Below, piece by piece: positions 29,419-33,543 of a stretch of DNA of 48,133 bases. This DNA comes from Prochlorococcus sp. AG-409-P01 (GTDB lineage: Bacteria > Cyanobacteriota > Cyanobacteriia > PCC-6307 > Cyanobiaceae): contig QCKM01000011.1 in the NCBI GenBank assembly GCA_003215335.1, positions 1 to 48,133 on the forward strand, read 5' to 3'. Numbering within the stretch: the first letter of the stretch is position 1; each line of letters opens with the position of its first letter. Below the pieces are notes generated by a model, which was not told where the DNA came from, searched no databases, and was given only the letters and a program-made list of their open reading frames with translations. Position numbers and translations under genes: made by a program.

Positions 29419-29847
29419 ATGTCCAAGAATCGAAATTGGATGGTTCTTCCGCTAATAGCGATTTGCCTTGGGGGTACTTGCCTCCAAATAGAGGAAGTAA
29501 AAGCAGCTAGTAATGAACCTGGCAGCAAAGGAGCAAAGATTTACTGCTTTATGCGCTCAAATGGCAATGAGCATGAAGTGAGCTGGAAAGCTTCCTATGA
29601 ACTTATTAAGCGTCAAGCAAGCAGTCTGTTTAAAACTTCTCCTCGCCACGCTGCAGTAATGATCACTGAAGCTGTAGTCAAAGAGCCAAATAGTTTTGCG
29701 AACTGTGGTAAATATCTAGGAGATCTATTCCAACCAATAGAAAGAGCTGCTATTGATAAATCAAATTTGAAGAATTCTAGAATCAAAAACACTTCCTATA
29801 GCAATACTACTGAAGAGATAAGGAGTGAAGATCGATATAGTTATTAA
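29419..29847 (+). CDS. Small exported protein, 142 residues
   Basis: The ATG at 29419 begins MSKNRNWMVLPLIAICLGGTCLQIEEVKAASN, a signal peptide with a likely cut after VKA. The mature part has two spaced Cys (in KIYCFMRS and FANCGKYL) that could form a disulfide, a helical core (SWKASYELIKRQASSLFKTS), and a Ser/Asn-rich tail. It resembles short secreted proteins that are conserved and unnamed in marine picocyanobacteria. It overlaps the next frame by 23 bp if that one starts at 29825. Location is inferred to be the periplasm or thylakoid lumen. Confidence 0.65.
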   Translation: MSKNRNWMVLPLIAICLGGTCLQIEEVKAASNEPGSKGAKIYCFMRSNGNEHEVSWKASYELIKRQASSLFKTSPRHAAVMITEAVVKEPNSFANCGKYLGDLFQPIERAAIDKSNLKNSRIKNTSYSNTTEEIRSEDRYSY

Positions 29848-30238
29848 AGCTAAAATAGTGATTGGAAGATTTCTTATTTGTGGGGTCTTGCTTTCCATTT
29901 TTGGCTGCAGAATGCCTGCAACAACAAAAGATCAATTAAACACAATAAGCGTTTCATCACAAGCTTGTCTCGAAGAGCTCAACCTAGCCTTTTTGGAAAA
30001 AGCTCTAAAAGATTGCAATGAAGTAATCACTCAATATCCAAATAATCCTGAGCCTCTAAACGACCGCTCACTAATTTATACCTTGATGGGTGATATGAAT
30101 TCTGCTTGCAATGATGTCAATCAAGCATTAAAATTGCTTGACACTAAAGTCAGTGAAGCAGACCCTTTAGTCCGTCACGAGTTAATTGTACGAAAAGACT
30201 CTTGCATAAAACGAGTAAACATGCTTGGCATAGATTGA
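29825..30238 (+). CDS. Small TPR lipoprotein
   Basis: The N-terminus has a hydrophobic segment and lipobox-like LSIFGC (Cys near residue 28 from the 29825 start). The body has a TPR-like pair: LEKALKDCNEVITQYPNNPEPLNDRSLIY and MGDMNSACNDVNQALKLLD (shown in two parts). Two GTG starts are possible, 29825 and 29858; the second gives a tighter signal peptide. The last 64 bp overlap the 3' end of the SNF2 gene on the other strand. It follows the 142-residue exported protein, and both may be expressed together. Confidence 0.6.
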   Translation: MKIDIVIKAKIVIGRFLICGVLLSIFGCRMPATTKDQLNTISVSSQACLEELNLAFLEKALKDCNEVITQYPNNPEPLNDRSLIYTLMGDMNSACNDVNQALKLLDTKVSEADPLVRHELIVRKDSCIKRVNMLGID

Positions 30239-31704
30239 CGTTCAATAGTTATACGGCGATTGCCTAATAGAATGTCTATTTGCTTAGCTTTTGATTCCAA
30301 TATTCCATCTACTAACTGATCTGCTAAACCCAATTGAAACCAATGGCTTGTAAGTGAGTCTTGCATGCCAATTCTATGGCAACGATCCTCAGCCTGCTCA
30401 ACATCACCTGGAGTCCAAGGCCTTTCCAAAAGCACTACATGCTTGGCAGTCTGCAAAGAGAAACCTAATCCACCAACCCCGTATGATGCTAATAACAAAG
30501 GATTAAGCCCTTTCTGAAACCTCTGAACAATTTCCAACCGCTGATTAATAGTTTGTAACCCAGTCAGTAGTTCACCACCTATCTTTTGCTGTAAAAGAAG
30601 TAATGGTTGAATAAAATTACTAAAAAGTACAACTTGTTGTCCACCAACAATTAAATCAGTCAAGAAACTACTAACTACAGGCAATTTAAATTCTGAACTA
30701 ATTTGCCGCATAGCAGTTAAAACAGCTAAGGATTCAGTCTCTGAACGAACTAAGCCTTGCTGAACCCTATATCGATAATCCTCAACAACCAAAGAAATTC
30801 GATGTTGAAAACCAATAGCCTCTAAACCTTTTAACTTAATCTGATGAAACTTGCGATTTTTTGGTCGTAATCCAATTAAAGCCTTCTTTTTCCTATGTAA
30901 AATAAATTGACGAGTGTGATTTCTAAGATCTTCTAAATTAGTAACGTCAAAAGAAGACCATTTTCTTTGGCCAGAATGAATACTGCAGTGATCTTGGCAA
31001 AAATATTCTTCAAATTTGCGCTGATCACGAGCTAAAGGATGATCAATAGCCGCCAAAAGAGGATATAGCTGTGCTGGTCGTCCATTTTTCATAGGAGTCC
31101 CAGTCAGCATCCATATAGCCTGCAAACGAGGATGACGTGCAAGTCGCAAAAGAGCCTTAGTGCGTTTTGCGTTTAAAGATTGCGCAAAATGCGCCTCATC
31201 CACAATTAAAAGTGTTCCTGTAGAAGATAACAACTCCACTGGAAGGCTTGCCCAGCTATGTAATTCAATTATTAAATCCAAACTTTTTGCCTCACTCCAC
31301 CAATGGGCATGCAAACCCACAGGAGCAACAACCAAGACCTTTACATGAGACGAACGAACCATCCCACGTGCAGCCAAAAGAGCTGTAAGTGTTTTACCTA
31401 ATCCCATCTCATCAGCTAGAACTGCTCCTCGCCGAGCTAGCAACCACCGAGCTCCAGAACATTGATGCAGAAATGGGATTCGACCATCACTCAACTGAGT
31501 ATGCAACTCTGCTTTCTCCACCAACACACGATGTATTGGCAAAGGTGGCAATGGGTTTTCTAAACAATTCAACCAATTAGCCAAATCATCTTGAACTACA
31601 AAACGAGAGCCAAGCTCCTGCTTTAAATTCAACCAAGCCCCTAAAGGGAATTCCCAAACTTTCCGATTGGCAGACCAAAAACCTCTAGGTCTAATCTTTC
31701 TCAA
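30175..31704 (-). CDS. SNF2-family helicase, SMARCAL1/ZRANB3-like, start uncertain
   Basis: A superfamily 2 SNF2 ATPase. Motif I DEMGLGKT is at 98-105, motif II VDEAH follows, then motif III LTGTPMKN and motif VI QAEDRCHRIGMQ, with a bridging second RecA domain (LFSNFIQPL, LASYGVGGLGFSLQTA). The first 40 residues (GFWSANRKVWEFP) look like the end of a HARP-like module found in fork-remodelling helicases. Coding sequence of the same style continues upstream of the TTG at 31704 to about 31812 without an ATG, GTG or TTG, so the real start is unresolved. Likely role: DNA annealing or fork repair. It is divergent from an HNH nuclease gene. Confidence 0.83.
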   Translation of the reverse strand: MRKIRPRGFWSANRKVWEFPLGAWLNLKQELGSRFVVQDDLANWLNCLENPLPPLPIHRVLVEKAELHTQLSDGRIPFLHQCSGARWLLARRGAVLADEMGLGKTLTALLAARGMVRSSHVKVLVVAPVGLHAHWWSEAKSLDLIIELHSWASLPVELLSSTGTLLIVDEAHFAQSLNAKRTKALLRLARHPRLQAIWMLTGTPMKNGRPAQLYPLLAAIDHPLARDQRKFEEYFCQDHCSIHSGQRKWSSFDVTNLEDLRNHTRQFILHRKKKALIGLRPKNRKFHQIKLKGLEAIGFQHRISLVVEDYRYRVQQGLVRSETESLAVLTAMRQISSEFKLPVVSSFLTDLIVGGQQVVLFSNFIQPLLLLQQKIGGELLTGLQTINQRLEIVQRFQKGLNPLLLASYGVGGLGFSLQTAKHVVLLERPWTPGDVEQAEDRCHRIGMQDSLTSHWFQLGLADQLVDGILESKAKQIDILLGNRRITIERQSMPSMFTRFMQESFRTINS

Positions 31705-31835
31705 ATGGGCATGAGTGACTGCATCAAAAGGAAAAGAAACCTTGATCAGACCTTCTGGGGTTAACCCTAAAGAACAACTAGATGGAAAGACAGTTCCCCT
31801 AATCAGACGAATTTAAACTTACTTAATTCCACCTT

Positions 31836-31851
31836 TATTGCAATAGCAATA
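31836..31851. promoter_or_regulatory. Inverted repeat TATTGC-aata-GCAATA
   Basis: A perfect 6-4-6 inverted repeat in the divergent gap between the SNF2 helicase and the HNH nuclease genes. Its position suits a shared operator. There is no matching known site. Confidence 0.3.
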
Positions 31852-31953
31852 TCGTCCACTAATCAAAGCGCCGCCCTCTTAGCAAAATTAATTTCTCAAC
31901 CATATTGACTGGAATAGCAATCACGGCAAACTGCGAGCAACCGATTCACTCGG

Positions 31954-32385
31954 ATGCATAACAGAGATGCAGTATTTCTAGAAGATCTCTGTCCAAAATT
32001 ACGTGTCCGACGATGGAGACAGTCATTGCATTCCTTTACTGGGCAAAGTTGCATTTACTGCGGCAAACCCTCTGAATCCATTGATCACGTCCTTCCAAGG
32101 AGTCGAGGAGGCTTAAGTGTGACAGAAAACTGTGTGCCGGCCTGTCTATCCTGCAACGGACATAAGTCCGATGCAGATGCTTTCGATTGGTACAGGCGTC
32201 AACGTTTTTATGACCCTCGAAGAGCTATGGCAATACGAGCCTGGATAGATGGAGATCTACGCCTTGCATTGAGACTTCTTCAATGGGCACAACCCCATCA
32301 AGAAAACAAATCGATTAATGATCTACAAGAAAAGAATCATGACGCTGAAGTCATAAAGCCAGACTGGTCCTTACAAGTGGCTTAA
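31954..32385 (+). CDS. HNH endonuclease
   Basis: The 143-residue protein carries a complete HNH fold: CIYCGKPSESIDHVLPRSRGG with zinc Cys33 and Cys36 and the catalytic Asp44-His45, then ENCVPACLSCNGHKSD with Cys64, Cys67 and the Asn. N-terminal residues 1-28 are basic (LRVRRWRQSL). The C-terminal part is helical (WYRRQRFYDPRRAMAIRAWI). Such proteins nick or cut DNA with one metal ion. In animals ZRANB3 carries a SNF2 helicase and an HNH nuclease in one chain; here they are separate, divergent neighbours. It may equally be an independent housekeeping nuclease. Confidence 0.88.
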   Translation: MHNRDAVFLEDLCPKLRVRRWRQSLHSFTGQSCIYCGKPSESIDHVLPRSRGGLSVTENCVPACLSCNGHKSDADAFDWYRRQRFYDPRRAMAIRAWIDGDLRLALRLLQWAQPHQENKSINDLQEKNHDAEVIKPDWSLQVA

Positions 32386-32646: not shown

Positions 32647-33543
32647 ATGTTGACAGCGCTTGTCAAGAGATCAAAGCCTCTGCCGTCTAATTCAAAGCTT
32701 TTGATCCTAGGCGGAGGATTCAGTGGTCAGCGAATTGCTGCACTAACGAAAGCATTAGGGAACAATGTTTTATGTACCCGTCGAGAAGCAAGCAAGCCCG
32801 GAGCCGATATCATTTTCGACAGTAGAACTCAACAGTTACCTCCCAAAGAAGCGCTTGAAGGAGTAACCCATTTAGTGAGCTGCATCCCACCTTCAGAAGA
32901 CGGAACAGATCCCGTAATAACGAACCTAATCGAACACCTCAAAGTGATGCCCCTGGAGTGGGTTGGATATCTATCAACAACAGGGGTATATGGAGACTCC
33001 AAAGGGGATTGGGTCACAGAGAAGGATCATCCGCGACCAACACTTCTCAGAAGTAAGCGGCGGCTCGCTTGTGAAGAAGCCTGGAAAGCAACTGGCCTAC
33101 CTCTTCAAATCCTAAGACTGCCTGGTATCTATGGCCCAGGACGATCAGTGCTTCAAAGCGTCCTTAATGGCAACAGTAAAATGATAGATAAGCCTGGCCA
33201 AGTCTTTTCGAGAATCCATTTAGACGATATTGCTTGTGCCACTCTGCATCTCATCCACCAAGCAAAAATAGGTCAACGTCCAACTGTGATCAATGTGGCA
33301 GATGACATCCCAATTGCAAATACAGAAGTTATTCGCTATGCATCCAAATTGCTTGGACGTTCACTTCCTCCAGTTGAACCATTTGAAAGCGCAGCGACAA
33401 AAATGAGTCCAATGGCTCTTTCCTTCTGGCAAGAAAATCGAAGAATAAGCAACAAGTTACTTTGCAAAGATCTTGGCTACACGCTCATCCATCCTGACTA
33501 TCAATCAGGATTAAAGGACTGTTTACTAAAAGATGGACTTTAG
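32647..33543 (+). CDS. NAD-binding epimerase/dehydratase-like protein
   Basis: An extended short-chain dehydrogenase-like protein of 298 residues. The NAD-binding loop LILGGGFSGQR is at about 18-28. The STTGVYGD stretch holds the Thr/Ser that lies next to the cofactor, and the active-site Tyr position is present in that segment, but the usual YxxxK is replaced by RSKRRLACEE, as in the YeeZ-like atypical group. LRLPGIYGPGRS follows. Its substrate is unknown. It begins 33 bp after the divergent small membrane protein start and is followed by a convergent small gene. Confidence 0.8.
   Translation: MLTALVKRSKPLPSNSKLLILGGGFSGQRIAALTKALGNNVLCTRREASKPGADIIFDSRTQQLPPKEALEGVTHLVSCIPPSEDGTDPVITNLIEHLKVMPLEWVGYLSTTGVYGDSKGDWVTEKDHPRPTLLRSKRRLACEEAWKATGLPLQILRLPGIYGPGRSVLQSVLNGNSKMIDKPGQVFSRIHLDDIACATLHLIHQAKIGQRPTVINVADDIPIANTEVIRYASKLLGRSLPPVEPFESAATKMSPMALSFWQENRRISNKLLCKDLGYTLIHPDYQSGLKDCLLKDGL

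Follow-up and report, generated by a model that had tools for sequence, protein, structure and literature searches.

The eukaryotic protein ZRANB3 combines an SNF2 motor and a C-terminal HNH nuclease domain of the zinc-binding ββα-metal type in one chain. In the cited part of the respective study, a helical insert (residues 975-1013) precedes the catalytic D1020-H1021 of this domain, deletion of the insert abolishes cleavage, the nicking endonuclease GmeHNH (4H9D) figures among the closest structures, and a figure legend mentions bacterial ZRANB3-like proteins (PMC5481773). In the annealing helicases of the SMARCAL1/HARP family, the HARP domain (PF07443) precedes the SNF2 motor. No paper title on an SNF2-HNH pair of the kind described here was found among the open-licence papers listed; the sources used, each in part, are PMC5481773, PMC12841045, PMC2921402, PMC6083498 and PMC10448857.

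The window, i.e., the whole stretch of 48,133 nucleotides analyzed here (contig 11 of the 1.78 Mb assembly G000), contains an SNF2/SWI2 ATPase ORF (30175-31704, minus strand; 509 aa counted from a TTG; motifs GLGKT, DEAH and QAEDRCHRIG) that is divergent from a predicted HNH endonuclease gene (31954-32385, plus strand; 143 aa). The first-pass annotation had described these as an SNF2 ATPase and a complete HNH nuclease separated by about 140-250 bp, and this description stands: both ORFs occupy these positions, each has Pfam support, and the gap measures 249 bp when counted from the TTG and 141 bp when the whole open frame is considered. The SNF2 ORF matches SNF2-rel_dom (PF00176, E 2.6e-22) and Helicase_C (E 1e-13), with the motifs present and the predicted fold in agreement, whereas the HNH ORF matches HNH (PF01844, E 4.3e-10, 40 bits against a gathering cut-off of 21.4), retains the zinc and catalytic residues and has no Pfam domain above cut-off other than HNH types. 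The SNF2 ORF is convergent with, and overlaps by 64 bp, a TPR-like gene (29825-30238, plus strand), and downstream of the HNH gene lies an NAD-dependent epimerase-like gene (32647-33543, plus strand), which served as the synteny and tree control.

Domain architecture of the SNF2 and HNH proteins

Orthologues of the SNF2 protein align about 24-30 codons upstream of the TTG of the window, the coding homology reaches approximately position 31782, past the ORF end at 31704, and several relatives have TTG or CTG at one conserved Leu in the upstream stretch. Judging from these alignments, the TTG at 31704 is too short a start, which cuts into a conserved domain. Because the homology runs upstream and yet the frame there (31705-31812) contains no ATG, GTG or TTG, the protein probably begins at a non-canonical codon, for which 31801-31812 offers ATT and CTG, or else at another start. 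Many relatives have one in-frame stop inside the aligned SNF2 stretch, so that the C-terminus of the window protein may have been extended into the neighboring TPR-like gene.

In an AlphaFold2 model built from 16 sequences (mean pLDDT 83), residues 11-70 of the extended frame (31603-31782, minus strand), a region that begins upstream of the TTG, are predicted to form an ordered b-b-a-b-b-a domain (pLDDT ~90). The HARP-like character of the N-terminal residues, noted in the first-pass annotation, is suggested by profile comparison but not by a direct Pfam match. Pfam HARP (PF07443) is not among the matches of the window protein or of 10 host N-termini, and at E <= 0.001 it was found in 0 of 194 class genomes; nevertheless, a profile of the host N-termini finds viral relatives with 93% probability (E 3.4e-7, a single comparison), and six of the seven viral relatives match Pfam HARP, with E values ranging up to 1 and as low as 1.6e-5. 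Profile comparison and structural modeling thus favor a motor with a putative HARP-like domain. The domain order would be that of the SMARCAL1/HARP family, to which the protein is linked through the HARP-matching viral relatives, but the window protein is bacterial and small and its domain lacks a canonical start codon. The best SNF2 matches in plasmid records are DEAD/DEAH helicases of cyanobacterial plasmids (PCC 7502, PCC 7524, SO-36 and NIES-88; 34-37% identity), which differ in being plasmid-borne and longer (671-801 aa by coordinates) and in that no HNH gene is annotated within 5 kb. Further SNF2 relatives are found on cyanobacterial plasmids and viral contigs; among the plasmid and viral relatives fetched, the shortest distance between an SNF2 and an HNH gene is 4.2 kb (L209).

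The zinc/ββα-metal core of the HNH protein (32050-32166, plus strand) comprises C33, C36, D44-H45, N59, C64, C67, N68 and K71, and the nine zinc or catalytic residues are identical in all 87 host loci (loci that overlap in genomes). The folds nearest to the predicted structure (mean pLDDT 85) are Cas9 HNH domains (AcCas9, Z 8.6, rmsd 2.3, 86 aligned residues, tied with the next rows), and GmeHNH is also among the near structures and matches the protein in phmmer (E 9.2e-7). The likeness to GmeHNH and to the Cas9/IscB HNH domains lies in the modeled fold and the active-site layout; the window protein differs in being stand-alone, and the best Foldseek E value is only 3.5e-3.

With ZRANB3, the locus shares the two predicted activities, the zinc-binding ββα-metal HNH and GmeHNH as a near structure, but here the SNF2 and HNH proteins are encoded by separate divergent ORFs. 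Only 7 residues separate C36 from D44-H45, the ZRANB3-type helical insert is absent from the host rows of the HNH alignment and from the model, and the position of ZRANB3 H1045 is, to judge from the spacing, probably occupied by N68. Because the insert that ZRANB3 needs is missing, the window HNH is, on the evidence of alignment and model, not ZRANB3-type. The ZRANB3 HNH structure (5MKW) lies outside the fold matches listed, which is no test of likeness.

Gene order, presence and loss in the family

Among 251 genomes of the family, relatives at E <= 1e-6, distant paralogues included, were found in 247 for HNH and in 212 for SNF2. Under strict cut-offs (HNH <= 1e-40, SNF2 <= 1e-30; counts read by eye), the 167 near-complete genomes of the family (at least 90% complete, at most 5% contaminated) include 122 with both genes, 36 with HNH only (15 in group g18, 15 in g56, 3 in g11, 2 in g39 and 1 in g4) and 9 with neither (7 in g9, 1 each in g26 and g49), and none with SNF2 only, so that SNF2 occurs without HNH in 0 of the 122 near-complete SNF2-bearing genomes. 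A candidate for this missing class (locus L062 of G183) was omitted from the counts, given a genome completeness of 55% and an epimerase gene that likewise lacks its start. Nineteen of the SNF2-less genomes were recognized by subtraction from the list of HNH-bearing genomes. The class searches covered 214 genomes; none of the 190 outside the family has a strict HNH match, and the sole SNF2 relative among these (40%, in G422) adjoins ParA-like and ParB-like ORFs, as read by eye.

The two genes are divergent neighbors in all 103 family genomes that have both matches listed (matches were listed for 150 genomes per gene), with a median gap of 256 bp to the TTG-equivalent position. The first-pass annotation would have counted against joint action either an adjacency limited to one or two strains or an HNH gene common without the helicase and in unrelated settings; the former is not the case across picocyanobacteria, whereas the latter holds in part, HNH occurring without the helicase in 36 of the 167 near-complete genomes. 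The neighboring genes are, in turn, comparably fixed. In 51 HNH-centered loci, the epimerase gene is present in 50 and SNF2 in 37, and the 36 SNF2-centered loci contain HNH in 36, epimerase in 35, DUF6554 in 35 and TPR in 34; these loci are the best-scoring ones rather than a random sample, the two sets share genomes, the loci that lack the epimerase (L015 and L037) have a short flank on the epimerase side of HNH, and the 36 do not include L062 and L097. The SNF2-HNH adjacency is more than chance, but so is the adjacency of the flanking genes, and because the latter are equally conserved in place, it says little on this particular pair and is mostly inherited synteny. Pair-specific adjacency was accordingly dropped as the main argument once the whole block proved syntenic. 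A contig titled Bifidobacterium breve MAG (L121) also carries the picocyanobacterial block and is probably mis-binned.

Of the 14 SNF2-less HNH loci, 13 have DUF6554 on the SNF2 side (L022 reaches a contig edge) and all have the epimerase gene on the opposite side, and the TPR gene has no match in any of them, so SNF2 and the TPR gene appear, from this gene order, to have been deleted while HNH stayed. The catalytic HNH residues are kept in 14 of 14 loci without SNF2. The median dN/dS of HNH is 0.087 in 32 SNF2-less pairs versus 0.097 in 76 SNF2-containing pairs, and in the same 30 pairs the medians are 0.106 for HNH and 0.070 for SNF2 (the pairs are not independent in either comparison). Purifying selection thus acts on both genes, by dN/dS somewhat more strongly on SNF2, and it is not relaxed on HNH where SNF2 is absent. 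The mean protein distances in the 36 loci are 0.25 for HNH, 0.45 for SNF2, 0.52 for DUF6554 and 0.65 for the epimerase.

In G025, the gene order is AbrB-DUF6554-TPR-epimerase-PdxA, and SNF2 and HNH are unmatched. Because this genome is nested among genomes with both genes in the RpoB tree of 30 genomes (100/95, starred), the absence is a loss of both genes with retention of the neighbors. In G048, which has no SNF2 match, the TPR-like gene is kept and an HNH fragment (L399, 7004-7102, with masked bases nearby) is apparently a decaying copy. This genome groups with four g9 genomes in a single clade (100/99, starred), which the outgroup places as sister to the rest, at a fork (92/70) that is unstarred; in the four g9 loci read, the epimerase gene adjoins AbrB, SNF2 and HNH both lack a match, and one locus has a TPR-like ORF in between, as judged by eye. 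The three HNH-only rows of the RpoB tree form one clade (98/84, starred). On the small trees, SNF2 loss takes 3-4 changes, of which the starred branches force only 1 (L022, which reaches a contig edge, was counted among the SNF2-less rows). Such events are few in number: a single joint loss favors a link, and a single lasting HNH-alone clade disfavors dependence.

Direct signs of coupling were sought in other ways. In the distance matrices of the 36 loci, the SNF2-HNH partial r is 0.37 (permutation p 0.005), lower than for SNF2-DUF6554 (0.58) and SNF2-epimerase (0.76), and mirror-tree coevolution was set aside given this weaker signal than in the two control pairs. Natural SNF2-HNH fusions, which the first-pass annotation had suggested looking for, were not found in 259 SNF2-matching ORFs scanned with a narrow HNH profile or in the loci from L097 on scanned with a loose pattern.

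Taken together, these data lead us to favor, with moderate confidence, two conserved, separately selected DNA-processing genes within a family-wide syntenic block, one for a SMARCAL1-like motor and one for a phage-type HNH nuclease, with coupling between them possible. The SNF2 protein would be a small motor in which the modeled HARP-like domain is followed by a two-lobe SNF2 translocase on dsDNA, and by analogy with its families it would most likely re-anneal or regress DNA at ss/ds junctions, e.g., at stalled forks. The HNH protein, as its predicted fold and active site suggest, would be a stand-alone metal-dependent nuclease of the free-standing cyanophage kind in a fixed chromosomal place, which most likely introduces nicks or breaks during DNA repair or cleaves incoming DNA; its gene has a conserved promoter-like element of its own and persists where the motor gene is missing. 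A loose functional link could exist beside the inherited synteny, and several observations pull against this favored reading, namely the consistent presence of HNH with SNF2 (a pattern not required of independent genes), the joint loss in G025, the pattern in G048 and the positive partial r.

The first two of these observations, together with the divergent adjacency in 103 of 103 genomes and the motifs retained in both proteins, would fit a split ATP-dependent nuclease, as the first-pass annotation proposed, in which SNF2 and HNH cooperate at forks or annealed junctions like ZRANB3, and HNH in SNF2-less genomes works alone or with another motor. We consider such joint action unlikely: the adjacency is that of a syntenic block, HNH, unlike the ZRANB3 nuclease, persists under unrelaxed selection where the motor is missing, the ZRANB3 insert and any fusion were not found in the sequences searched, and the SNF2 relatives on the four cyanobacterial plasmids have no HNH gene annotated nearby.

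Phage relatives of the HNH protein

At E <= 1e-6, HNH matches 202 phage records, of which 132 have names that begin with Synechococcus (102), Cyanophage (15) or Prochlorococcus (15), 27 are from Mycobacterium phages and 20 from Microbacterium phages, in addition to others. The phage proteins listed are 37-44% identical to the host HNH, similar in size and alignable over approximately residues 8-107, most of the phage protein; a conserved C-terminal part (RQ.FYDPRR...RAW..GD...RLL.W) marks the host proteins off from them. In the four phage loci read, the HNH gene is free-standing in differing contexts, whereas the host gene is chromosomal and fixed in place. The best match outside the family among class genomes has E 3.1e-14. 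By sequence similarity, then, the best outside matches in the class-genome, phage and viral collections searched are viral, many of them from cyanophages, and closer bacterial relatives may exist beyond the class.

In the HNH tree (104 rows, 132 columns), the host sequences and the extra copies of g18 form one clade of 46 rows (99, starred), with viral rows nearest; the tree has a midpoint root and weak deep forks, its bacterial rows come from the class alone, and a viral-to-host direction of transfer would rest on this topology. An IMG/VR "viral" contig with an 81% HNH (L115, a row in alignments A3 and A4) was dropped as viral evidence, given that AGT, AbrB and DUF6554 matches adjoin and the contig looks like a Prochlorococcus chromosome.

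It can be imagined, although we regard it as distinctly improbable, that a cyanophage-type HNH was captured early in picocyanobacteria, became near-core and, in most lineages, came to work with the neighboring HARP-SNF2 motor, yielding a split ATP-driven fork nuclease convergent on ZRANB3, whose motor a streamlined clade later dropped while keeping the nuclease. If the two proteins were shown to cooperate, they would represent a bacterial equivalent, in two proteins, of a fork-repair enzyme of animals. Under the favored reading of separately selected genes, if the HNH assignment is true, picocyanobacteria retain a small nuclease related to the enzymes of their own phages even in genomes of 1.6-1.7 Mb. 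The SNF2 protein would offer biochemistry a minimal bacterial HARP-type motor. Both proteins belong to known kinds and are retained as neighbors, and the chief interest is a phage-type nuclease that seems to be maintained even where family genomes are complete and small.

The free-standing phage relatives at varied places and the extra copies elsewhere in g18 genomes would also fit a selfish homing endonuclease that sits at this chromosomal site by chance. Homing genes usually decay, however, and HNH lies beside the epimerase gene in every HNH-centered locus but one, which ends first, keeps its nine key residues throughout, has low dN/dS and forms one supported host clade, which makes a selfish homing endonuclease very unlikely. 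An anti-phage defense module is the least credible option, quite remote in our assessment: PADLOC profiles of defense SNF2 helicases and HNH proteins match the two proteins scanned, but only partially and at the level of shared domains, HNH is near-universal in the family at one place whereas defense islands are variable, and no methylase or known defense partner was found by Pfam in the four neighbors scanned.

Further HNH copies were noted in several genomes. The g18 copies (L360-L368) have similar surroundings in the four fully listed loci, and some contain stop codons; in G151 there is also a third one, with 69% identity. G000 itself encodes a second HNH protein (L001, C2:99886-100017; open frame of 192 aa), and similar weak matches recur across the class. 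PMM1528 is described, in the cited part of PMC2921402, as a UV-induced "HNH endonuclease"; its position suggests that its counterpart is probably this second, class-wide HNH, and the UV induction was therefore not applied to the HNH of the window.

The intergenic gap and the promoter-like element

The first-pass annotation had pointed to a 6-4-6 inverted repeat in the gap (31836-31851). The repeat exists, but it is at chance level and not conserved: it occurs in 1 of 45 distinct gaps, that of the window itself, the window contains 16 repeats of this kind, and mononucleotide shuffles of the gap yield repeats with 6-bp arms in 52 of 1000 cases for a spacer of 4 and in 266 of 1000 for spacers of 2-8. 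A regular expression for LexA-like sites found none in the 45 distinct gaps, and shared regulation of the two genes was rejected on these two grounds.

In the aligned upstream sequences, ATTGAC and GGCAAACT-like elements recur ahead of the HNH start, followed by a short inverted repeat that runs to the start codon. In the window, this candidate promoter spans 31904-31934 (plus strand), with ATTGAC at 31904-31909 and GGCAAACTGC at 31925-31934, and the repeat occupies 31941-31953 (plus strand; CCGA..TCGG, CCGAG..CTCGG in many relatives). Among distinct upstream sequences, a stem of at least 4 bp is present in 30 of the 44 from loci with SNF2 and in 5 of the 22 without it (9 of the 22 being extra copies at other loci), compared to ~10% of mononucleotide shuffles, and ATTGAC is present in all 13 SNF2-less primary HNH loci. 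A transcript from this promoter-like element would carry a very short leader.
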